Positions 30,339 to 41,242 of a DNA stretch of 64,000 nucleotides are shown here, piece after piece. The stretch comes from Haloarchaeobius amylolyticus. GTDB lineage: Archaea; Halobacteriota; Halobacteria; Halobacteriales; Natrialbaceae. A model generated the notes under the pieces. The model was not told the origin of the DNA. It did not search any database and saw only the letters and a program-made list of their open reading frames with translations. The stretch lies in the NCBI RefSeq assembly GCF_026616195.1, contig NZ_JANHDH010000001.1, positions 1,426,001 to 1,490,000 of the forward strand. Reading direction: 5' to 3'. How positions within the stretch are numbered: the first letter of the stretch is position 1; each line of letters begins with the position of its first letter. The translations under genes were made by a program, and so were the position numbers.

Positions 30339-31493
30339 TCAGAACCACCCGAGCACCCGCTCCGTGACCGACCGACCCGGGTTCTCTCGCTCCCGGTTGC
30401 GGAGCCGCCCCTGCTTCAGCGTCACCGCCCCGGCGAGGTAGACCGTCGACCCGAGCAGCCCGTCGATGGCGACCAGCGGGAGCCAGGGATGCACCCGGTA
30501 CAGCCCGTCGATGACCGGCCCCGGCAGCACCGCGAGGTACCGATGTTGCGTGAGGAACCGCCGGTAGTACCCCGTGTCGTCCGCCGCCGCGAGCGTCAGG
30601 GTCGCGTTCGTGCGACTCTGGCCGTCGACCACGAGGTGTCGCGGCGTCACCGCCACCCCCTCGCTCGCCGGTTCGAGGTAGACGTGCACCGGGACCAGCC
30701 CGGCGTTGGCGACGCGGTAGGGCAGGTCGCTCGTGGTTCCCTGCTCGATGACGGTCGGGTTCTCGGACTCGAACTCCGCGCTGACGACGCCGAACTCCTG
30801 CGTGCCGGCGGGGACGACCATCGCCGCGGTCGCCGCGACCACCACGAGCAACGCCAGTCCCGCGAGCACCAGCCGCAGTGATGTCCCGTCGTCGCGGCTC
30901 CGTGACCGCTGGCGCTTCTCGGCCGCCGGGTCCGTGAGGTACCAGTCCAGCACGTAGCCGACGACCGACAGCCCGAACAGCACCATGGCGACGCCCTGTG
31001 ACCCGAGCAGCGACCGCATGCCGAGGGTCTGGGCGAGCCGGAGCTGGGTCCATTCGAGCGCGTCCTGGATGCTCATCACGACCGTCCCGAGGTACGGGAT
31101 GACCAGCACGGAATCGCCCACGGTCAGCGCTTTCGCGACGACCTGGGCGTCCTTCACCGGTGGCTCCTCGCCGTCCTGGTCGGTGAAGGGATTCGCATCT
31201 CCGCGGGTGACGTACCCGCGGTCCGTCTCCGCGACGACCCGGTGGGTCGTGAGCCCGCCGCCGTGGAGGTGTTCGGCCTGGAAGACGATGACGTCGCCCT
31301 CGGAGACGTCCCCGCCGATGGCGGTCGGGATCGCCACGAAGCCGTCGCCGGGGTCCATCGTCGGCTGCATGCTGCCGGTCTCGACGTAGCTCAGGAGGAT
31401 AGGCTGGCCGAGCAGCGCCCCCGCGAGCAGCGAGACGAGGACCAGCGCGACCGCTGCCGAGGCTGCGAGCGATAGCAGACGGCGTGCCCCCAT
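30339..31493 (-). CDS. SipW-like type I signal peptidase with C-terminal extension
   Basis: 384 residues. S26 signal peptidase of the archaeal/ER type with a Ser-His dyad: one N-terminal membrane segment (9-30), nucleophile Ser41 in YVETGSMQPTM, His84 in THRVV, and the conserved Asp in YVTRGDANPF. After about residue 150 there is a further membrane segment, a basic loop, another segment (near 220-240), a beta-rich extracytoplasmic part (EFGVVSAEFESENPTV) and a final hydrophobic region. That extension is not in housekeeping signal peptidases. Last gene of a block of secreted-protein genes whose signal peptides are of SipW type, so it is the probable processing enzyme. Confidence 0.85.
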   Translation of the reverse strand: MGARRLLSLAASAAVALVLVSLLAGALLGQPILLSYVETGSMQPTMDPGDGFVAIPTAIGGDVSEGDVIVFQAEHLHGGGLTTHRVVAETDRGYVTRGDANPFTDQDGEEPPVKDAQVVAKALTVGDSVLVIPYLGTVVMSIQDALEWTQLRLAQTLGMRSLLGSQGVAMVLFGLSVVGYVLDWYLTDPAAEKRQRSRSRDDGTSLRLVLAGLALLVVVAATAAMVVPAGTQEFGVVSAEFESENPTVIEQGTTSDLPYRVANAGLVPVHVYLEPASEGVAVTPRHLVVDGQSRTNATLTLAAADDTGYYRRFLTQHRYLAVLPGPVIDGLYRVHPWLPLVAIDGLLGSTVYLAGAVTLKQGRLRNRERENPGRSVTERVLGWF

Positions 31494-31539
31494 CTGGTGG
31501 TCCCCCCAGTAGCAATCGGTTCGTCGCCCGACAGGAAAT

Positions 31540-31568
31540 GCCCCGGGTTGATATATCCTGCACGGGGC
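31540..31568 (-). promoter_or_regulatory. TATA box of the signal peptidase gene inside an inverted repeat
   Basis: GATATATC (31550-31557) lies about 57 bases before ATG 31493, giving a leader of about 30 bases that carries a G-rich Shine-Dalgarno-like run. The box is flanked by GCCCCG (31540-31545) and CGGGGC (31563-31568), perfect 6-bp arms that could be an operator or the 3' hairpin of the preceding gene. Confidence 0.45.
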
Positions 31569-31586
31569 TGCCGGGCGGGGCCGCAC

Positions 31587-33098
31587 TCAGACGCTCGTGA
31601 GTCGGCGGAGCACCACCACCGAGACCAGTACGCTGGCAGCACCGACGACGACCGCGACGACGGCCCCCGGGTCGGCCTCGCCACCCTGGGTGGACAGCCC
31701 GGGTGCGCCCGCGTCGGTCGCCTCCTGCTCGGCGCCGGTTCCCTGGCTGTCGCCCGTGCCGGCGGAGCCGTCGCCGACGCCGGTCGTCTGGTCGGCGCCG
31801 GCCGCCCGACTGACGACGACCTCCCCGGCGTCGACAGTCCCGACCTGGAGCGAGTGCGTCCCCGGCTCCTCGAACGTGAGCTCGTACCGGACGACCGCAC
31901 GCTCGTCCGGGTCCAGTGCGACCGGTTCGCGCTCGACCGCCGCGTCGTCGACCGCGACCGCCAGTTCCCGGCGACCATCGGCCATGCCGTCGTTCTCGAC
32001 CGAGGCACGGACCGTCACGGTCTCACCGGGAACCACGTCTCGGTCCGCGACGCGCACGCCAGCGACCTGGATGTCGGGCTGCCCGCTCGCCACGACGACC
32101 GTCCCGAGCGCGTCGGTCGTCGCGACGTAGTGCATTCGCTCGCCGTGCTCGACCAGCCGGGCGTCGAGTTCGGTCCAGTTGCCGTCTCCGTACTCGAGGA
32201 GGGTCACGTCGGCCGGGTCGGTTCCCCGCCAGTCGAGGTAGTCCCGGTCGACGCTGACGTACAGCCGCACCGTCTCGAACCCGCCGGTTCCGATGGCCTG
32301 CCGGAGGTCGAGGTACCCGTCCGGCTGGGCGTCACGACCGGCCGGGAGCGCCCCCACCCCGCCGACCGGCTCCGGGCTGCCCACGATGTCCACCCGCACC
32401 ACGTCCTCCCGCGTGGGTGCGAGCGCGACGCGGTCGAGGGTCACGTTCGCCCCCGCGACGTGCATCCGGTCGAGGTCGGCCGTCTTCGACCCCGTGACGT
32501 GCCAGAGGGTGACCCGGCGCTCGTTCGGTGCCGGCTTCGCCACCGACACCGCCGGGACGCTCGCGGTCTGGATGTCCGCGTCCGTTCCCTGGGTCGAATC
32601 GGTGGCGGCCTCCGCCGGGACCGCGTTCACCTCGAACTGGTCCCGCACGATGTCGACCGTCACGTCCTCGGTCGTGTCGACCCGCAGCCCGACCGCGACG
32701 CTCTCGTTCTGCCCGAGCACGACCGCGTTCCCCTTGCCCTCGATGGACTCACCCCGGGCGACGAAGGTCAGAAATGGCTGGTCGAGGTCGAGCCACACCC
32801 GGGCCGGCTCCGGGTTCGTGTTCGTGACGGTGAAGATGTCCCGGACGGTGGTTCCCGCGTCGATGGAGACGCCCTCGCCCTCGAGGTTCGGGTTCTCGGC
32901 GGTCAGGTCGACCGTCAGCTCGCCGTCCTCGTCGTAGTAGGCGAAGTCGCCGTTGTCACCCGGGTGCGGGGTGAGGTGGATTCCCTGTCCGATGGTGTCG
33001 GACTGGGTGGTGAGGAACGCGCCGGTGCCCTGGAGGAGCGCGAGGGCGATGGTGATGGTGGCGACGGCCGTGAGGAGGAGTTTCGTTGCTCGGTGCAC
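31587..33098 (-). CDS. Secreted CARDB-type surface protein with C-terminal anchor
   Basis: 503 residues from GTG 33098 (the frame stays open to 33212; the shorter start puts the signal peptide at the terminus). Signal/anchor ATKLLLTAVATITIALALLQ is followed by GTGAFLTTQSD, the same end motif as its neighbours. Residues about 40-150 are a DUF1102/TasA-like beta region (TVRDIFTVTNTNPEPARVWL). About 340-440 is a CARDB-like beta sandwich (VVPGETVTVRASVENDG). A Gly/Ser/Thr-rich linker leads to a terminal membrane segment (about 477-498) and RRLTSV. Likely cell-surface anchored. Confidence 0.75.
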   Translation of the reverse strand: MHRATKLLLTAVATITIALALLQGTGAFLTTQSDTIGQGIHLTPHPGDNGDFAYYDEDGELTVDLTAENPNLEGEGVSIDAGTTVRDIFTVTNTNPEPARVWLDLDQPFLTFVARGESIEGKGNAVVLGQNESVAVGLRVDTTEDVTVDIVRDQFEVNAVPAEAATDSTQGTDADIQTASVPAVSVAKPAPNERRVTLWHVTGSKTADLDRMHVAGANVTLDRVALAPTREDVVRVDIVGSPEPVGGVGALPAGRDAQPDGYLDLRQAIGTGGFETVRLYVSVDRDYLDWRGTDPADVTLLEYGDGNWTELDARLVEHGERMHYVATTDALGTVVVASGQPDIQVAGVRVADRDVVPGETVTVRASVENDGMADGRRELAVAVDDAAVEREPVALDPDERAVVRYELTFEEPGTHSLQVGTVDAGEVVVSRAAGADQTTGVGDGSAGTGDSQGTGAEQEATDAGAPGLSTQGGEADPGAVVAVVVGAASVLVSVVVLRRLTSV

Positions 33099-33260
33099 GG
33101 CTACCGGCCTCTGTGCTGGCTGCTGTTGGTCAGCGTTCCCATCCTCTGTCCCCCCGCGAAGACCCACCGGCGGAATCGAACCGCCGAATGCCAGAGTGGG
33201 TCGAATCCCCAACCGAGTCGTAGTCGTCCGACAGCGCTTCCTCTGGCGTTTCTGGTGTGG

Positions 33261-33836
33261 TCAGTCCGTAGCGACCGCGTTGATAGTCAGCGTCACGTCA
33301 TACTCTTCCTCTTGGACAGGAACCCCATGGGTATCGATCTCCAGCCCGCAGATTAGCTGTTCACCGACAGCGAGTGGTCCCGACGGACTGCTCTCCGTGA
33401 GCAGGTTCCCCGTTTCGACATCGTACATCGTCACCGACGGGACGCCCGCGGTCGTCTCCTGTGTGCTGTAGACCTCGACGGGCTGTGTACCCTGGTTCTT
33501 GACACCGAACAGACCCGGTTCGTCGTGAGCAGCGTCTTCGCCAAAGCGGTAGACAGAGTCGATTCCGAGCCCTTCTGGGTCAGTTGGATTGCCGGCTGGA
33601 TAGTTCCCCTCATCTGGGCTGGGAATATCAAATTGAAGTTCTGATGGGTTCCCGTCAAGTAGCGAACGTCTGCCCGTTCCTTGCTGGGTCAGAGTAAAAA
33701 CCGCAACGTAATCGTCTGTTGTTTGGATATTTATGTTTCGATTCGTACTGACGTTGGTGAATGCCTCTGTTCCGATGGCGAACGCGCCACTCATTGCGAG
33801 ACCTCCCAAGCCAGCAATGAGGGTGCGACGGTTCAT
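33261..33836 (-). CDS. DUF1102-type secreted protein, SipW-type signal
   Basis: 191 residues. N-terminus MNRRTLIAGLGGLAMSGAFA then IGTEAF, a SipW-type signal peptide with twin-arginine start. The mature part is beta-rich: NRNINIQTTDDYVAVFTL, an acidic middle, GVKNQGTQPVEVYSTQ and a C-terminal pair of strands EEEYDVTLTINAVATD. The NQGTQ-V-V-Y motif recurs in the next gene. Resembles DUF1102 proteins, probably TasA-fold-like fibre or matrix subunits (inference). AT-richer than its flanks. 16 bases downstream of its paralogue. Confidence 0.78.
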   Translation of the reverse strand: MNRRTLIAGLGGLAMSGAFAIGTEAFTNVSTNRNINIQTTDDYVAVFTLTQQGTGRRSLLDGNPSELQFDIPSPDEGNYPAGNPTDPEGLGIDSVYRFGEDAAHDEPGLFGVKNQGTQPVEVYSTQETTAGVPSVTMYDVETGNLLTESSPSGPLAVGEQLICGLEIDTHGVPVQEEEYDVTLTINAVATD

Positions 33837-33852
33837 TTATATGTTCTTCTAA

Positions 33853-34518
33853 TCAATCCCCTTTTCCCACGTAGGAATCAGGGACGATAGAGGTGTCAGC
33901 GACCATGGTCATCGACACGTCAATGTCTGCATCACCCGGGTTCTTGATGTAGAGTCCGAGACTGAAACTCTCACCGGGCTCGAGAACGAAGTCTCCCTTC
34001 TCTGCAGCGTAGCTGTTGAAGTCCGGAAGATTGTAAATCCCGGTCAGGCTAACTTCACCCTGTAGGTTAGCACCCGGATTATCGGCTGGGAGGTCGTTTT
34101 CAGGGTTGTAGTCCCCGTTGGGGCGGTTGGTCACCTGCGGGTCTACGCCAAACCCACTGCTCGTCGTCCTCTTGTTGTTCGGGATACTGTCTCCATCGAC
34201 GTAAACGACTGCGGCCTGGGTCCCTTGGTTCACAACATCGACCATATCGAGAATCCGGGTGAGTGAGTCTGCATTAAGCCCGTTTGCATCGTTGTTGGAG
34301 GTTGTGATTTCGACTTTACCTCCGTTCCCATCGATATTGACGTATTCACTGTTCGTATTACTATTCGACTGGAACGCGAGGAGGGCGTTCGAGTCGTTAG
34401 CAGTGCTGATACTGACACTACGATCAGCACTCACACTCGAGAACGCACCAGTACCCATTGCAGCTGCCCCGCCGGCAGCGACCGATCCGAGTCCGATCAA
34501 GAACTTGCGTCGTTCCAT
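33853..34518 (-). CDS. DUF1102-type secreted protein, SipW-type signal
   Basis: 221 residues. Signal MERRKFLIGLGSVAAGGAAA then MGTGAFSSVSADRSVSI, the same cleavage region as its neighbours. Mature part: SNALLAFQSN, an Asn/Ser/Thr-rich stretch, VVNQGTQAAVVYVDGD, and a C-terminal FVLEPGESFSLGLYIKNPGD followed by DIDVSMTMVADTS. The last two motifs are typical of TasA/camelysin-like or CalY-like Ig folds. Base composition is visibly AT-richer than the surrounding genes. ATG 34518; long leader possible. Confidence 0.8.
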   Translation of the reverse strand: MERRKFLIGLGSVAAGGAAAMGTGAFSSVSADRSVSISTANDSNALLAFQSNSNTNSEYVNIDGNGGKVEITTSNNDANGLNADSLTRILDMVDVVNQGTQAAVVYVDGDSIPNNKRTTSSGFGVDPQVTNRPNGDYNPENDLPADNPGANLQGEVSLTGIYNLPDFNSYAAEKGDFVLEPGESFSLGLYIKNPGDADIDVSMTMVADTSIVPDSYVGKGD

Positions 34519-34954
34519 TGTCCTGTATTCACCGTGTTGCGAGCACGACCCCGCACGAGCCGGCGTCCGACCGCGGGACGCCGCCTCGCACCGAATCGCT
34601 TCACTCGAACCCAATGGGAGATACCCGTACTGTATTGAGGCCCCTGCGAATCGGTGACACGTCGATTATAATTCGGGCGATTCGTGGCAGGCTTTCTCAG
34701 AGAACCCGCAGAGTCGCTCTGCGATGCGACAAATACCTACTGGCCGACCGGTAAGTGATGGATACTCGACCAGACCAGCCGAGTCCGACCGATGGAAGAC
34801 AGACCGCCATCACAGCCGTTCTCTGTGGCGGTATCCTCTCGATAACCGCCACACCCCGTCCGGTAACCACCCGGTAACCGACCGTTTACGTTACTAATGG
34901 TATCTGAAAGGTCGAACCGTTTTTTATACTGACCTGTCAATGACTACCCGTCTC
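34519..34954. promoter_or_regulatory. Divergent control region of the secreted-protein block
   Basis: 436 bases without a gene. It holds TTATAA (about 34674-34679), readable on both strands; a perfect hairpin GCAGAG-TCG-CTCTGC (34708-34722); CCGGTAA copies at 34748, 34860 and 34871, the last two 11 bp apart (one helical turn); and the TTTTTATAC box (34921-34929) for the rightward regulator. CCGGTAAC also occurs at 40249 before the large secreted protein, so these may be shared binding sites. Confidence 0.4.
34921..34929 (+). promoter_or_regulatory. TATA box of the DUF7344 regulator gene
   Basis: TTTTTATAC, centred 30 bases before ATG 34955 but only 15 before ATG 34940; this spacing selects 34955 as the real start. 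Confidence 0.55.
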
Positions 34955-35539
34955 ATGGGGGTCGCGAAACAGCGGGGGAACGAGGAGGCCGAGGTATCGA
35001 CACCGGTCTCCGAGGACGAACTGTTCGACGTGCTCTCGAACCAGCGACGACGCTACGCGGTGCACGTCCTGAAACAGGAGGAACAGGCGGCCATCGACAT
35101 CGGGCCGATGGCGCGACAGATCGCCGCGTGGGAGAACGACGTCGAGCTGTCCCAGGTCGATTACTCCGAGCGCAAGCGGGTCTACACCGCGCTCCAGCAG
35201 CAGCACCTGCCGCGGATGGACGAGGCGGGGGTCGTCGAGTTCGACAAGGACCGGGGGGTCGTCGAACCGACCGCCGCGCTGGCGGACGTCGACCTGTACC
35301 TTGACGTGGTCCGCGGGAAGGAGATGCCCTGGAACGAGTACTATCTCGGTCTCTCCGGCGTGGCCGTGGCGCTCACGGCCGTCGTCGGCGCGGACCTCTG
35401 GCCGTTCACCGCGTTCTCTGACTTCTCGTGGCTCGTCGCGGTCGTCATCGCGTTCGCCTGCTCGGCGCTGGCGCATCGCTACTACGTGACCGAACTGGAG
35501 CTCGGGTCGACGGAGGAACCACCGGAACTCGATAGATGA
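34955..35539 (+). CDS. Membrane-bound DUF7344 winged-helix regulator
   Basis: 194 residues. N-terminal DUF7344 winged helix (about 15-105): SEDELFDVLSNQRRRYAVHV, MARQIAAWENDV and VYTALQQQHLPRMDEAGVVE. Two membrane segments follow (about 128-148 and 153-175), then an acidic tail. A DNA-binding domain tethered to the membrane fits sensing of surface-protein status. Its stop overlaps the next gene by ATGA. A close paralogue (37438-38025) lies on the far side of this three-gene operon in the opposite orientation. Confidence 0.82.
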   Translation: MGVAKQRGNEEAEVSTPVSEDELFDVLSNQRRRYAVHVLKQEEQAAIDIGPMARQIAAWENDVELSQVDYSERKRVYTALQQQHLPRMDEAGVVEFDKDRGVVEPTAALADVDLYLDVVRGKEMPWNEYYLGLSGVAVALTAVVGADLWPFTAFSDFSWLVAVVIAFACSALAHRYYVTELELGSTEEPPELDR

Positions 35540-36084
35540 CACGCCTCAAGGCGGTGAGTATCGTGCTCGCGCTCGCGGCAGCCACAGCGCTGGTCTACGG
35601 GACCGTCGGCTACTCGTCGGTGTCGGCGGAGCGCGGCGTCGAGGTGTCGGTCGTCGGCGACGAGCAGGCCCTCGTCGGCTACCACGCGGCTGACCGGACG
35701 GTTACCGCCGGGACGACGACGCGACTCGTGACGGTGACCGACCGGACGCCGGTGCCGGTGACCGTCGAGGTCGTGCGCATCGAACACGGGCCCGGCGTCG
35801 AGGTCACCAGCGTCTCCGGCCCGGGGTCGGTCGGGGCCGGCAAGCGTGGCGTCGTCTTCGGGCAGGTCACGTGCGCGAACGAGACCACCGCCGACGTCAG
35901 CATCACCGTCGCGGTCCACGGCGAGGGGATCGACGCGACCCTCGACGGCGAGGCGCGGACCTTCGAGGTGCGCTGTCTGCCGACGCCGGCCGACGACGGA
36001 GTGGAGGAACCAGACGAGGAGACGAACGAGAGCACCACCAGCGACGAGACCACGACCGATGGCGAACACCGGGTGGTCGCATGA
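35536..36084 (+). CDS. DUF1102-like secreted protein
   Basis: 182 residues. Signal segment MTRLKAVSIVLALAAATALV then YGTVGYSSVSAERGVEV, matching the G-T-x-x-F/Y-S-S-V-S-A-x-R end of the DUF1102 neighbour (GTGAFSSVSADRSV). Mature beta-rich domain: RTVTAGTTTRLVTVTDRTPV and ETTADVSITVAVHG. The last 30 residues are acidic and Thr-rich, a likely disordered tail. Four-base overlaps with genes on both sides, so it is co-translated with the regulator and the DUF5305 gene. Confidence 0.75.
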   Translation: MTRLKAVSIVLALAAATALVYGTVGYSSVSAERGVEVSVVGDEQALVGYHAADRTVTAGTTTRLVTVTDRTPVPVTVEVVRIEHGPGVEVTSVSGPGSVGAGKRGVVFGQVTCANETTADVSITVAVHGEGIDATLDGEARTFEVRCLPTPADDGVEEPDEETNESTTSDETTTDGEHRVVA

Positions 36085-37310
36085 CCGACGACCACACGAA
36101 ACTGCGTGCTGTCGTCGGCGACAACCAGACCGTGGTCGCGCTCGCGCTCGTCGCCTGCGTGCTGGCCGGCGGCTGGCTCGCCTACGGGGCCTACGCCGAC
36201 CCCGGGGAGTCCACCCGGACGGTCCAGCAGGAGGCCTGGTCGACGACCGGCTGGTACAACCACTCCGCGACCGTCACCGAGGAGAACGACGTCTACGAGA
36301 CAGGCACCACGCTGGACGACCGGTCGACATACCTGGGTCGTATCGCGCCACGGCTCGACGGGAGCTACGTCTTCCAGTACGACGCCCGGCAGTCGGGCGA
36401 CCTCGCGGGGAACGTCTCGGTCGTGCTGGTCTTCACCGGGACCGAAGGCGGCTCCGGTGAGGAGCCCGCGACGGTCCACTGGCGGAAGGAACGCGTCCTC
36501 GCGAACGATAGCTTCTCGTCGCTCTCGCCCGGTGACCGCGTGCAGGTTCCCTTCTCGCTCGACGCCATCGCGGCCGACCAGCGTGCCGCGAACATCTCCG
36601 AGCAGCTCGGCAGCTCGGGCGAGCCGTCGGTGTCCATCCGGACGACCGTGACGGTGCAGGGGACCGTCGACGGGGAGCAGGTGACCCACCGGCAGACGGA
36701 CCCCCTCTCGCTCTCGGTCGACGGGAGCACCTACAGCGTCTCCGGGGCCACCGCACAGACCGAGTCCTTCGACGAGGCGCGGCAGGTCGCCGTCCCGGCA
36801 CAGGCCGGCCCACTGGGACGCTTCGGCGGCCCGGGACTGCTGTTCGTCGGGCTCGCTGGCCTCGGCGTGCTCGCGGTCGGGAACCGACGCGACCTCTTCA
36901 CCGTCTCCGAGGCCGAGCGCGAGCGACTGGCCTTCGAGGGCGAACGCGGCGAGTTCGACGAGTGGATCTCGGAGATCCGCCTGCCAGAGGACGCCTTCGA
37001 CCGCCCGGCGGCCGAGGCCGAGTCGCTGCAGGCCCTCGTCGACTTCGCCATCGACACGGACAACGCGGTCGTCGAGGACCCCGACGAGGAGGCGTTCTAC
37101 GTCGTCCACGGTGACTACCTGTACGTCTACCGACCGCCGACAGAGACGCCGGACGAGCCGGGAGCCGTGGCGATGGACGACACGGCTGACGCCGAGGAGG
37201 AGCCGGCCGGCCCGGACGCGGGCGCCGACGACTGGCCGGACCCGCTCGAACCCGTCACCACGTCGGAGGAGCCGCCGACCTGGGACGACACCGGGCAGGC
37301 GGAGGACTGA
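36081..37310 (+). CDS. DUF5305-type membrane protein
   Basis: 409 residues. One N-terminal membrane segment (about 16-38, VVALALVACVLAGGWLAYGA), an extracellular beta-rich region of about 200 residues with ARQSGDLAGNVSVVLVFTGT and SIRTTVTVQG, a second membrane segment (about 250-270), then an acidic cytoplasmic part with SEAERERLAFEGERGEFDEW and a Pro/Glu-rich tail. The topology and central fold fit haloarchaeal DUF5305 proteins, which travel with signal peptidases and DUF1102-type genes; function unknown. Last gene of the three-gene operon. Confidence 0.78.
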   Translation: MTDDHTKLRAVVGDNQTVVALALVACVLAGGWLAYGAYADPGESTRTVQQEAWSTTGWYNHSATVTEENDVYETGTTLDDRSTYLGRIAPRLDGSYVFQYDARQSGDLAGNVSVVLVFTGTEGGSGEEPATVHWRKERVLANDSFSSLSPGDRVQVPFSLDAIAADQRAANISEQLGSSGEPSVSIRTTVTVQGTVDGEQVTHRQTDPLSLSVDGSTYSVSGATAQTESFDEARQVAVPAQAGPLGRFGGPGLLFVGLAGLGVLAVGNRRDLFTVSEAERERLAFEGERGEFDEWISEIRLPEDAFDRPAAEAESLQALVDFAIDTDNAVVEDPDEEAFYVVHGDYLYVYRPPTETPDEPGAVAMDDTADAEEEPAGPDAGADDWPDPLEPVTTSEEPPTWDDTGQAED

Positions 37311-37437
37311 CCGGTCCGGCCCCGTCGACCGACGCTTTCCTCGTCTCCCGCGAGTCGGCTCGGTGCGGGGCGGGACGGAACGGGAGAGGAGGACAGTCCA
37401 TCCGTCTGTGGCAGCTGGCTCCCGAGTCCGGCCGCTT

Positions 37438-38025
37438 TCACTGGTGCCGGAGTTCGATGGGTGGCCCTCGCGGACCCCGCCGGGGGCGGTAGTAGTGCTC
37501 GTAGCAGTACCGCACCAGGGCGACCAGCACCGCGGCGAGGGACATCAGCAGCCACGTCTCTGGTGGGAGCGCGTCGAAGGGGGTGATCTCGAACGCGCCA
37601 CCGACTGCACACAGCGTTCCGACGCCGACCAGGGTGAGCAGGTACCGGGTCCAGGGGAACCGTCGCTCGAAGAGGACGGTCGTGAGGAGGTCACACTCGG
37701 TTGCTTCCGGTGTCACCGCGACCGTCCCACGACGCTCGTCGAACTCGACGATACCACTGCTCGCCAGTTTGGGCAGGTGGAACTGTCGAAGCGCGTTCTT
37801 CACCCGGCGGAGTTCCTGGGAGTGCAGTTCGTCGGGCGGTTTCTCGTTCTCCCAACTCGCGACCGTCTCGGCGAGGTCGCGGAGGGTCACCTGCTCGCCG
37901 GCCCGACAGAGCGCGTAGAGCGCGAACCGGCGCCGCTCGTTGCCCAGGGCCTCGAGTACGTCGTCGCGTGTGACGCGTCGCTCCCCGTGGCCGTCGCCGC
38001 TGGTCGAACCCCCGTCCCCCAGCAT
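37438..38025 (-). CDS. Membrane-bound DUF7344 winged-helix regulator (paralogue)
   Basis: 195 residues, same design as the protein at 34955: LEALGNERRRFALYALCRAG, LAETVASWENEKPP, VKNALRQFHLPKLASSGIVE, then two membrane segments (about 133-152 and 158-178) and a basic tail. Convergent with the DUF5305 gene and upstream of nothing on its own strand except the control region; the large secreted protein is encoded behind it on the same strand. ATG 38025 has TTTTGT(A) about 30 bases upstream. Confidence 0.82.
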   Translation of the reverse strand: MLGDGGSTSGDGHGERRVTRDDVLEALGNERRRFALYALCRAGEQVTLRDLAETVASWENEKPPDELHSQELRRVKNALRQFHLPKLASSGIVEFDERRGTVAVTPEATECDLLTTVLFERRFPWTRYLLTLVGVGTLCAVGGAFEITPFDALPPETWLLMSLAAVLVALVRYCYEHYYRPRRGPRGPPIELRHQ

Positions 38026-38052
38026 CTGTCGTTGATGGGTCGTGTCCCTCGT

Positions 38053-38070
38053 ACAAAAGAACGATTTTGT
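38053..38070. promoter_or_regulatory. Inverted repeat at the promoter of the DUF7344 paralogue
   Basis: ACAAAA-GAACGA-TTTTGT, perfect 6-bp arms, centred about 36 bases before ATG 38025 and covering the likely TATA/BRE position; a candidate autoregulatory operator. Confidence 0.4.
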
Positions 38071-38146
38071 CATATCAGGGTGAACGACACCGGGCGACCA
38101 TGCTGGGCCGGACGACTCAGGGGTGGAACCGGTCGGCCGAGCACGC

Positions 38147-40174
38147 TCAGGCCATCTCGTCCGACCCGGTGTTGTGCCGGCACTGTTCGGCCGTGAACTG
38201 GAGGCCGACGTGGCAGGTGTCCGTCTGCGTGATGTTGACGTCGATGGTGGCGTCGTTCTCGTCGACGTACCCGCGAGCACGGAGTTCGTCGTCGAAGGTC
38301 CCCGACGCGACCGGGTTGTTCACGAGCGGGAGGTCGGTGAAACCGTTCCCGTTCGAGTCGTTCGCCTTGCACGGCAGGAACCACTGCATGACGTAGCAGT
38401 GGACGCCCGGTTCGAAACAGAACGCGTCGACGTCGGGGTCACCGGCGACGCCCGACCCGTCGGCCTTCACGACCGGAGGAATCCGGATGCGGCCGTCGAA
38501 CTCCGGGCCGAACTGTTCGAGCCAGCCACTCATCGACCCGGCGTAGAGGACGTCGCCGGTCGGCTCGACGATCTCTGTGGGGTCCTCGGTGGAGAGGCTG
38601 CCGCCCTCGATGAGCACCCACGAGTCCAGCGAGGCGTCACCGGCGTCGGCGATGGCCAGCCGGAGCGTGTTCGGCTCCCCGGGAACGACGTCACCTTCTA
38701 CGTCGAGGACGACGGTGAACCCGTCCATCTCGGTGTCGGCCATCTGCCCGTCGTCCATCTCCGACGGGTCGTTGTTGTTGTACAGCTGGTCGTTGACGTC
38801 CTCGTTGACGTTGTCGATGGCTGCGGGGACCGTCTCGCTGGAGTCGTTCGGGTCCGGAACGACGGCGAGGTTCTGCCCGTTCAGGAAGAAGCCGAAGACG
38901 TCGTTGTACCCGGCATCGACGTACTCGTTGTACTCCTCGGAGCCGAACACGTAGTTGAAGTAGACCTTGTTGGCGTCCTGTGGGACCGTGAAGTCGAACT
39001 CGAGGACCGTCGCGTCCTCGGTCGTGGCGTTCGAGAGCGTGTCGAGGTCGCTGTCGCCGGGGTTATCGAACGCGGTGGTCGTCCCGTCCTCGTCGTTCGG
39101 CCCGGCCACGTCGGCCGCAGCCCCTGAGCTGAGGATGATGCCGCTCTCGATGCCGAGTGGGTCCATCCCACCCTGGAACATGCCGGCCGAGGCGTCGTTG
39201 CCGGTGTAGGTGACGCTCGCCGGGTCGATGGTGACGCCACCCTGGGTGGAGACCAGCGACGCCGCGAGGTCCTCCGCGGTGAGACTCCCATCGGTCAGGT
39301 CGGTGACCGAGAACGCGTCCGCGGCCGTGACGGCGGCCGTCTCGACCTCCTGGGCTGCGGGCGCCGTGGGGCTCTCGCCGTCCGTGGCCCCGTTCTCGTC
39401 GACCTCGATGATGTTGTCACAGTCAGGGTCGGCCGCGATGACCACGTAGAGGTAATCGCAGAGTTCCCCGCCCTCGAACCGGGGGTCGTCGATTAGCTCG
39501 CCCGCCTCGCGCTCGGGCTCGATGGGGTCGGTGACACCCTCGCGGTAGTCCTCGTCGCTCCGGGGAAGCGGCCCGCCCTCGCTGTCCTCGTCGAGGAGTT
39601 CCGCGTAGATGTACGACGGGTTGCCACAGAGGTGGAAACTGAAGGTGGTCTCACCCTCGTCGTACGGCTTGATGTCGACGAGGTCGATGAACATCCCGCG
39701 GGTCCCATCGACCAGGCCGGGGAGGAACTGGTTGCCGGGGTCGTCCTCGACGGTGAGGCCGCCCAGTACGTCTGGGTTAGCCTCGTCGGCGAGGTCGGTC
39801 GGGACGGGCAGCACGCAGACGTCTGTCCCCGTCTGGAACGCGCCCCAGTCCTCGTGGCTGATGGCGTCTCCGTCCGCGTTCCGGACCGCGGGCGCGGCGC
39901 CGACCTCGTATGTCATCCCCTCTGTTCCCACGACCACCGGGGGTCGCTGGTCCTCCGGGACGTTCTGCAGGTCGTAGCGCTCCCACGGCCGGTACGTCGA
40001 CCGATAGTCGAGCAACAGGTCGACGCGGCCCGCCTCGTACCAGCCCTCGAGCGATTCGCGGTCGCTGTAGAACGCGGTCGTGCCGAGTCCGGCACCCGCG
40101 CTTGCGACGCCGATGGTTCCGAGCCCGGCCAGCACCTGCCGACGAGACAGTCCGATATCTTGCTTCGTTGTCAT
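38147..40174 (-). CDS. TasA-like secreted protein with inserted choice-of-anchor-L domain
   Basis: 675 residues. Residues 1-35 are a SipW-type signal (LSRRQVLAGLGTIGVASAGA, then GTTAFYSDRES). Residues about 36-245 resemble the front half of haloarchaeal TasA/SipW-substrate domains, with IKPYDEGETTFSFHLCGNPS. About 285-526 is a choice-of-anchor-L domain: QGGVTIDPASVTYTGNDASA, VYFNYVFGSEEYNEYVD, NDVFGFFLNG and DSWVLIEGGSL. The last about 100 residues return to the first fold's ending (HCYVMQWFLPC ... EQCRHN). So one domain seems inserted in another. No C-terminal anchor. Its promoter region contains a CCGGTAAC site shared with the block's other promoter. Confidence 0.82.
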   Translation of the reverse strand: MTTKQDIGLSRRQVLAGLGTIGVASAGAGLGTTAFYSDRESLEGWYEAGRVDLLLDYRSTYRPWERYDLQNVPEDQRPPVVVGTEGMTYEVGAAPAVRNADGDAISHEDWGAFQTGTDVCVLPVPTDLADEANPDVLGGLTVEDDPGNQFLPGLVDGTRGMFIDLVDIKPYDEGETTFSFHLCGNPSYIYAELLDEDSEGGPLPRSDEDYREGVTDPIEPEREAGELIDDPRFEGGELCDYLYVVIAADPDCDNIIEVDENGATDGESPTAPAAQEVETAAVTAADAFSVTDLTDGSLTAEDLAASLVSTQGGVTIDPASVTYTGNDASAGMFQGGMDPLGIESGIILSSGAAADVAGPNDEDGTTTAFDNPGDSDLDTLSNATTEDATVLEFDFTVPQDANKVYFNYVFGSEEYNEYVDAGYNDVFGFFLNGQNLAVVPDPNDSSETVPAAIDNVNEDVNDQLYNNNDPSEMDDGQMADTEMDGFTVVLDVEGDVVPGEPNTLRLAIADAGDASLDSWVLIEGGSLSTEDPTEIVEPTGDVLYAGSMSGWLEQFGPEFDGRIRIPPVVKADGSGVAGDPDVDAFCFEPGVHCYVMQWFLPCKANDSNGNGFTDLPLVNNPVASGTFDDELRARGYVDENDATIDVNITQTDTCHVGLQFTAEQCRHNTGSDEMA

Positions 40175-40336
40175 GGTATCTGTGACACGTCACCAGCCGG
40201 GTGGTACCGGCGCCTGTTTCCTGGGAGGTCTTTAGAGCCGGTTTCCGGCCGGTAACGTACCGGTCCCATCTCTGCGTGGCGGGGGGTTATGTATACACAG
40301 CTAGCAGTTCTCTATTCGACCGTTCCTCGCGTAGAA

Positions 40337-40354
40337 GCCCGGCTTAAGCCGGGC
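40337..40354. terminator. 18-bp perfect palindrome after the TrmB gene
   Basis: GCCCGGCTTAAGCCGGGC, 82 bases past the TrmB stop on the minus strand. As RNA it gives a 7-bp GC stem with a TTAA loop; 3'-end hairpin is the simplest reading. The rest of the 261-base gap holds the promoter of the large secreted-protein gene (TCTAAAG near 40229-40235 on the minus strand). Confidence 0.35.
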
Positions 40355-40435
40355 GAAAGGTGACCCCAGAACTCCCCGAACGACTCGTTCGGACGGACGG
40401 CTGCGGTCGAACCGAAGCGGGTCAGGACGGCTGGC

Positions 40436-41242
40436 TCAGAAGTGCAGCGGTTCCGCGTTCTCCCACGTCGGCTGGAACTCCTCGTACACCTCGGTCGCGA
40501 ACTCGGGGTCCTTGAGGTCGATCATCGCGAAGGTCTCGCCGGAGGAGCCCAGCGGGTTGGGCACCTGGATGACGCACTCCACGTCGTCGAGCAGGTTGAA
40601 CGTGCCCGTGACGTCCTCGCTGGTGCGGACCTCGAAGTCGGGGTTGGGCGAGAGACGTTCGCGGTAGCGCCGGCCGACCTCCTCCGAGAGGGTGTCGACG
40701 ACCTCACGGGTGAGCAACACGTCGATCTTGACGCCACGGTCGAGGGCGTCCTCCAGCTGTTCGACTATCTGGTCGCCGATATCGGTCACGTCGAACTGGG
40801 GGGTCTGGGCCGAGGCGACCATGATGATGCGGCGGTCGGCCGCGGTGAGGCGTTCGAGCAGGAGGTCGGTGGTCTCCTCCTGCCCGACGGCGGCGGTCCA
40901 GAACTGCTCCTCGACGGGTTCGGCCGCGTCGAGTTCGTCCGAGAGCTCCTCGACGATGTTCTCGTACTGTTCGGCCTTCTCCTCGAGTTCGCGCTTCTTG
41001 TCGTCGAGGAGGCGGTCCAGCGCGGTCGCGGGCTCGACGGCCACGTACTTCTTCGGCCGGCTCGCGGTCTGGCTGCGGACGAGGTTGTACTGCTCGATGC
41101 TGTTCAGCACGTCGTAGATACGGCCCATGGGCACGTCGCTGGCCCGGGACAACTCCTTCGCGGTTGTCGGTCCGGTGTTCAACAGCGCGCGGTATGCTCT
41201 CGCTTCGTACTCCGACAACCCGAGGTCCCTGAGACTCGCCAT
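40436..41242 (-). CDS. TrmB-family regulator
   Basis: 268 residues. N-terminal winged HTH: LRDLGLSEYEARAYRALLNT, AKELSRASDVPMGRIYDVLN, LVRSQTASRPKKYVAV; a coiled-coil linker (about 80-115, LDDKKRELEEKAEQYENIVE); C-terminal PLD-like effector domain. TrmB relatives in haloarchaea govern sugar and central carbon metabolism (family knowledge); its targets are not shown here. ATG 41242 is set by GTTTATGG 29 bases upstream. Confidence 0.9.
   Translation of the reverse strand: MASLRDLGLSEYEARAYRALLNTGPTTAKELSRASDVPMGRIYDVLNSIEQYNLVRSQTASRPKKYVAVEPATALDRLLDDKKRELEEKAEQYENIVEELSDELDAAEPVEEQFWTAAVGQEETTDLLLERLTAADRRIIMVASAQTPQFDVTDIGDQIVEQLEDALDRGVKIDVLLTREVVDTLSEEVGRRYRERLSPNPDFEVRTSEDVTGTFNLLDDVECVIQVPNPLGSSGETFAMIDLKDPEFATEVYEEFQPTWENAEPLHF

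Follow-up and report, generated by a model that had tools for sequence, protein, structure and literature searches.

Does a block of genes for secreted and membrane proteins in the haloarchaeon Haloarchaeobius amylolyticus encode an extracellular fibre and, if so, of which kind? The block lies in a 64,000-nucleotide (nt) stretch of contig NZ_JANHDH010000001.1 (the window), part of a 4.6 Mb genome whose nearest named relatives in our searches were Haloarchaeobius. An earlier note, made from the letters alone, had proposed positions 30339-40174 as a single candidate SipW/TasA-type fibre or matrix system. We read ten genes over 30339-41242 (P0001-P0010; Table 1), among them every gene that the note had named. 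Pfam and NCBIfam label P0001 as an S26B signal peptidase, P0002 as a DUF1102 and CARDB protein, P0005 and P0008 as DUF7344, P0007 as DUF5305, P0009 as choice-of-anchor-L and P0010 as TrmB; the scores confirmed the CARDB, DUF5305, choice-of-anchor-L and both DUF7344 assignments of the note. P0003, P0004 and P0006 matched no Pfam family in the Pfam profile search and gave matches below cut-off to the NCBIfam fimbrial models TafE and TafC. Judged by its genes, 30339-37310 very probably forms one conserved module encoding a divergent Taf/Tafi-type pilus. It holds the peptidase, a DUF1102/CARDB anchor, two pilin-like proteins with twin-arginine translocation (Tat) leaders, a DUF7344 protein, a third pilin-like protein and DUF5305. 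Fibres of this kind are already known, the system being named in both the PDB and NCBIfam.

Table 1 Features of the locus, with positions in the window
Feature	Coordinates	Strand	Evidence
S26B signal peptidase P0001, 384 amino acids, extra transmembrane (TM) segments and C-terminal extracytoplasmic immunoglobulin (Ig)-like domain	30339..31493	-	TIGR02228, A1 alignment, A6 profile
Surface protein P0002: N-terminal DUF1102/pilin-like domain, middle beta domains, CARDB, C-terminal TM anchor	31587..33098	-	PF06510 25.4 bits, PF07705 26.6 bits
Small Tat-leader pilin-like subunit P0003	33261..33836	-	A3 profile vs 9P0A; TafE 40.2 bits, below cut-off; RR and R33 invariant
Small Tat-leader pilin-like subunit P0004	33853..34518	-	A2 profile vs 9P0A; TafE 88 bits of 155 (5.9e-25)
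TATA-like TCAATACA (34631-34638) and ~100-nt 5' leader of pilin operon, predicted long hairpin	34519..34638	-	
DUF7344 winged-helix-type regulator P0005, two C-terminal TM segments	34940..35539	+	PF24035 104.7 bits; divergent from pilins
Third pilin-like secreted protein P0006, TafC-N-terminal-like, without lectin domain	35536..36084	+	TafC 40.2 bits of 410; A7 vs A2
DUF5305 membrane protein P0007, TM segments either side of extracytoplasmic domain	36081..37310	+	PF17231 182 bits
Second DUF7344 protein (P0008) and choice-of-anchor-L protein (P0009)	37438-40174	-	P0008 PF24035 90.8 bits; P0009 222.9 bits
TrmB-type regulator with DUF7436 (P0010)	40436-41242	-	Adjoins block; not conserved with module

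Conservation of the module and its relation to Taf loci

We compared the window with 40 other neighbourhoods using iterated profiles. The peptidase, pilin-like proteins and DUF7344 were present in all 41 loci and DUF5305 in 38. Because the module is kept in 40/40 other neighbourhoods (DUF5305 in 37), the block exceeds a chance arrangement. In the usual layout the peptidase is followed by an anchor, which may be missing, and one to three pilins; some 200-700 bp further on come a divergent DUF7344 gene and a TafC-like gene. DUF5305 commonly comes after the peptidase; the window differs in having it behind P0006. Most of 80 named loci, from Halorubrum, Haloarcula, Natrinema, Halobacterium and others, carry the same gene set.

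Peptidase homologues were found in 114 of the 121 genomes of the window's family. The co-occurrence with the peptidase that the earlier note had predicted for other genomes was borne out here as in the 40 neighbourhoods: a full-length-type peptidase (E<1e-50) and a TafA-family match occurred together in 107 genomes, one alone in 2 and 1, and neither in 11 (Fisher p 7e-13, kinship ignored). Since this p value takes no account of kinship, the contrast within one genus weighs more. Two Haloarchaeobius-genus genomes (G069, G081) lack the peptidase module, the TafA-family match and DUF5305, and three (G009, G037, G056) have all of them, with DUF5305 unlinked (on another contig or far off). This joint presence or absence of DUF5305, peptidase and pilins within Haloarchaeobius is newly seen here.

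Loci with above-cut-off TafA, TafC and TafE hold DUF5305, a large anchor, TafE, TafA, DUF7344, TafC and a peptidase, and the gene set of the window (peptidase, anchor, small subunits, DUF7344, TafC-like protein and DUF5305) is the same as in three such loci (L190, L191, L195). A true TafA adjoins a peptidase paralogue of another branch in 3 genomes of the window's family, and the window module is therefore a divergent sister of the true Taf module. The two share a homologous pilin, DUF7344, an Ig-bearing peptidase, a large anchor and DUF5305, in divergent layouts, and both versions can occur in one Natrinema genome.

Pilin-like subunits and the probable large anchor

P0004 is the best pilin candidate as far as its sequence indicates. 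Searched singly, it matched a single entry of the PDB, chain C ('Pilin') of 9P0A, at 8.5e-12; the fold search gave the title of this entry, released 2025-07-23, as 'Structure of Natrinema sp. J7-2 Tafi pilus'. A profile of 69 P0004 relatives (A2) matched the 9P0A pilin at E 1.4e-34 over positions 1-166 of 193, an alignment that takes in the mature domain, and the P0003 profile (A3) matched it at E 5.2e-24. The small-subunit profiles also matched each other (A2 against A3, 1.4e-46; the P0006 profile A7 against A2, 1.1e-20), and the N-terminal domain of P0002 (A4) matched A2 over its whole length (E 3.4e-24). The earlier note had described three DUF1102-like proteins. PF06510 was matched by P0002 only, the sole match in the genome, but the three small proteins are homologous to that domain by profile comparison. 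The RR motif of Tat leaders is present in 78/82 and 57/60 of the two small-subunit sets, and an arginine, R33, is invariant after a GxGAF motif. In 9P0A, 188 of 215 residues are modelled; cleavage immediately ahead of the GTGAF Phe would fit this entry if its 27 missing residues are N-terminal.

P0002 is probably the base or anchor of the fibre. A C-terminal TM segment is present in 56/64 of its relatives (the large class), as against 0/239 small subunits, and a fold search with its AlphaFold2 (AF2) model (pLDDT 83) recovered CARDB (3IDU). P0006, whose frame overlaps that of P0005 by 4 nt, is probably a minor or terminal subunit. A laminin-G lectin domain ends the Haloarcula-type TafC (L190; 8.6e-23), and P0006 lacks this domain.

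Several points count against a pilus. The proteins of the window fall below the NCBIfam equivalog cut-offs (TafE 88/155, TafC 40.2/410, TafA 34.6/190 bits), which makes them relatives and not equivalogs. Common leaders could have aided the merging of small-protein profiles during hidden Markov model iteration; the hhalign alignments of these profiles extend over the mature domains, not the leaders alone. The beta-rich AF2 model of P0004 is of moderate quality (pLDDT 68.8, pTM 0.66), its fold matches had TM-scores of about 0.35 and E values of 3e-3 or worse, none below 1e-3, and TasA was absent from the top 50 matches of this moderate-quality model. Donor-strand pilins did rank first in that search (FimA, 9P0A, the Sulfolobus thread and AbpA). 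Of these, the archaeal donor-strand pilins AbpA (7UEG; rank 11, E 0.097) and Sulfolobus thread (7PNB; E 0.048) are weak structural matches that have no sequence match to P0004. The fold search is thus suggestive, and the sequence profiles carry the claim. The module might instead encode secreted or S-layer-associated surface proteins with a common beta-sandwich fold, and their peptidase, that do not polymerise; such features as CARDB and Ig-like domains, Tat leaders and a C-terminal anchor are also common among those surface proteins of haloarchaea that form no filaments. We regard this as very improbable, since the pilin profile spans most of the solved Tafi pilin and the gene set is identical to that of loci whose TafA, TafC and TafE are named fimbrial.

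For a Taf-type pilus, the leaders suggest that precursors of P0004 and P0003 would exit by Tat (RRxF motif) and those of P0006 and P0002 by Sec. The dedicated peptidase P0001, whose catalytic residues are in place, would then cleave at the common motif GxGA|F(S/T), and each freed N-terminal strand would fill the groove of a neighbouring subunit, polymerising the fibre by donor-strand exchange. This last step is predicted from homology to 9P0A and from analogy to AbpA and to TasA, which assembles by donor strand (PMC9674648). P0002 would hold the base of the fibre through its C-terminal TM segment, and P0006 may serve as a minor or terminal subunit, as the lectin-bearing TafC suggests. P0007 may cooperate with the peptidase when subunits are processed or assembled, and membrane-bound P0005, from its position, may control the divergent pilin promoter; the earlier note's idea that it senses the fibre is a further hypothesis. 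Widespread haloarchaeal genes of unknown function (DUF1102, DUF5305, DUF7344) are thereby tied to a single pilus system whose pilin structure is solved, and are given testable roles as anchor subunit, tip, and in assembly and regulation.

The signal peptidase and the DUF5305 protein

The earlier note had called P0001 SipW-like. P0001 scores as an S26B signal peptidase (TIGR02228, 57.3 bits; cut-off 51.85), and Ser42, His85 and Asp100, the catalytic residues of the S26B (endoplasmic-reticulum, ER) type, are invariant among 12 homologues; its likeness to SipW is weak (equivalog model NF046067, 32.4 bits; cut-off 190). It is probably the counterpart of 'TafD', where we infer the letters TafB/D/F/G from gene order. 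The Bacillus tapA-sipW-tasA operon likewise combines an ER-type signal peptidase with cleaved beta-sandwich fibre subunits and, by analogy, donor-strand assembly. However, the peptidase of the window is twice as long and bears an Ig-like domain, and its pilins have Tat leaders and lack a TasA/camelysin match. We know of no Bacillus counterpart of DUF7344 or DUF5305. Of the comparable extracellular structure envisaged by the earlier note, the analysis supports a secreted-fibre system of archaea with its own signal peptidase and a DUF7344 regulator tethered to the membrane; it does not support membership of the SipW/TasA family proper.

The Ig-like domain of P0001 spans residues ~229-333. Peptidases of module loci carry a C-terminal domain of this type in 121/121 cases, in part because of how the loci were selected, as do the peptidases of 11/11 true-Taf-type loci. 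Identity of the P0001 domain is about 40% with the peptidases of Natrinema-type true-Taf loci and 25-28% with the remaining ones. We did not find the domain in the two peptidases from P0009-type arrays, in the peptidase of a small second module (L188), or in 15 of 16 S26 peptidases of other orders; the sixteenth sits in a complete Taf-like module (L231). Its presence on module peptidases and absence from most other S26 peptidases tested is newly seen. The domain matches Ig families in Pfam weakly, ASH/PapD-like and CARDB-like ones among them; its best relatives there are of the ASH/MSP type (15/59 members, best 1.2e-4). Comparison by hhalign gave 34% for the CARDB region of P0002 and 10% for the pilins, to which homology was unsupported.

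Outside haloarchaea, an S26 peptidase is found no more than 500 bp from DUF5305 in 7/10 loci, three of them with overlap of the reading frames, and a single gene separates the two in an eighth locus. This newly seen linkage suggests that DUF5305 acts as a partner of the signal peptidase. We tentatively raise the possibility, which we consider rather doubtful, that peptidase and DUF5305 form an undescribed platform for pilus processing and assembly. Here the Ig-like domain would retain each newly cut subunit until it takes part in donor-strand exchange, and DUF5305 would be the partner of the peptidase; the peptidase would in effect be a fusion of signal peptidase and pilus chaperone. The arrangement is conserved across the Taf-type loci that we examined and is also seen in one distant archaeal genome. 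If the domain were such a chaperone, it would hint at how donor-strand pili assemble in cells that have no outer membrane, usher or periplasmic chaperone.

Two further loci deserve description. L231 (G468:C2:189762-195442), from a genome of 40% GC in the same phylum and outside the order, comprises DUF5305, the Ig-bearing peptidase, an anchor-like protein, two pilins and DUF7344, with leaders of the Sec instead of the Tat type. The genome of the window itself carries L188 (G000:C1:1861215-1864300), a minimal second module of pilin-like protein, S26 peptidase, pilin-like protein and DUF5305 on one strand.

The putative regulatory region and neighbouring genes

In a DUF7344 tree, P0005 falls inside the module-associated clade; P0008, which likewise has two C-terminal TM segments, sits on a long branch with unsure placement. 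Haloarchaeal mRNAs are mostly leaderless. The leader of the pilin operon, newly seen here, is conserved in 4 Haloarchaeobius genomes (fold z -3.1), and related leaders precede 40 pilin genes. Pilin operons (L036-L061, L155) have a TATA-like TTACAATA or TCAATACA 64-186 nt (median about 127) before the ATG, followed by a structured leader of ~100 nt. An Rfam search of the leader region gave no match, and its pairs are mostly invariant, with few two-sided changes. It could be a regulatory RNA hairpin or a DNA operator for DUF7344. Many Natrialbaceae-type loci also have a palindrome, GATCCCCG-n3-CGGGGATC, and in several predicted folds an outer stem pairs with the Shine-Dalgarno GGAG.

Among the 41 loci, P0009 and the TrmB gene occurred in the window only, and we rejected both the P0008/P0009 pair and P0010 as parts of the module. 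The single block of the earlier note was thus upheld for 30339-37310 and not for 37438-40174. On the rival reading that follows that note, the locus would be a SipW/TasA biofilm-matrix operon proper, P0009 forming the TasA-like fibre and the two DUF7344 proteins acting as sensors. P0009 indeed has a Tat leader and a TasA/camelysin-type N-terminus (GTTAFYSDRESLEGW..AGRVDL), and its relatives match TIGR04088 (SipW-dependent) and camelysin PF12389. However, P0009 occurs in 1/41 module loci; this genome holds about 7 copies of its family, all but P0009 at other loci, and the family is abundant in G069 and G081, where the module is missing. Some of its arrays have their own S26 peptidase, more SipW-like than P0001 (NF046067, 92.8 bits, 2e-26, against 32.4 bits), together with paired DUF7344 genes. 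P0003, P0004 and P0006 matched no camelysin/TasA model in the profile search, and neither PF12389 nor TIGR04088 matched any of P0002-P0009 at E<=1. The operon reading is very improbable, and largely refuted by distribution.

The P0009 family is instead a second, more SipW/TasA-like haloarchaeal system and not part of the Tafi-type fibre. Given the matches of P0009 relatives to SipW-dependent and camelysin models, and the SipW-like peptidase that some arrays possess, two different signal-peptidase/surface-protein systems lie side by side here. Both have Tat leaders, and S26 peptidase and DUF7344 genes accompany some P0009-family arrays. These arrays differ from the module in their N-terminal motif, in large, interchangeable VWA or choice-of-anchor domains, in a peptidase without the Ig-like domain, and in that DUF5305 was not found with them. 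Arrays in the genome of the window include tandem ones at G000:C1:430676-436188 and C1:199183-202361 and one at C2:292090-293274 (L208-L210). In Halorubrum coriense (L081), choice-of-anchor-L-like open reading frames, a short S26 peptidase and DUF7344 adjoin a Taf-type peptidase/DUF5305 pair, so that the two systems are neighbours outside the window too.

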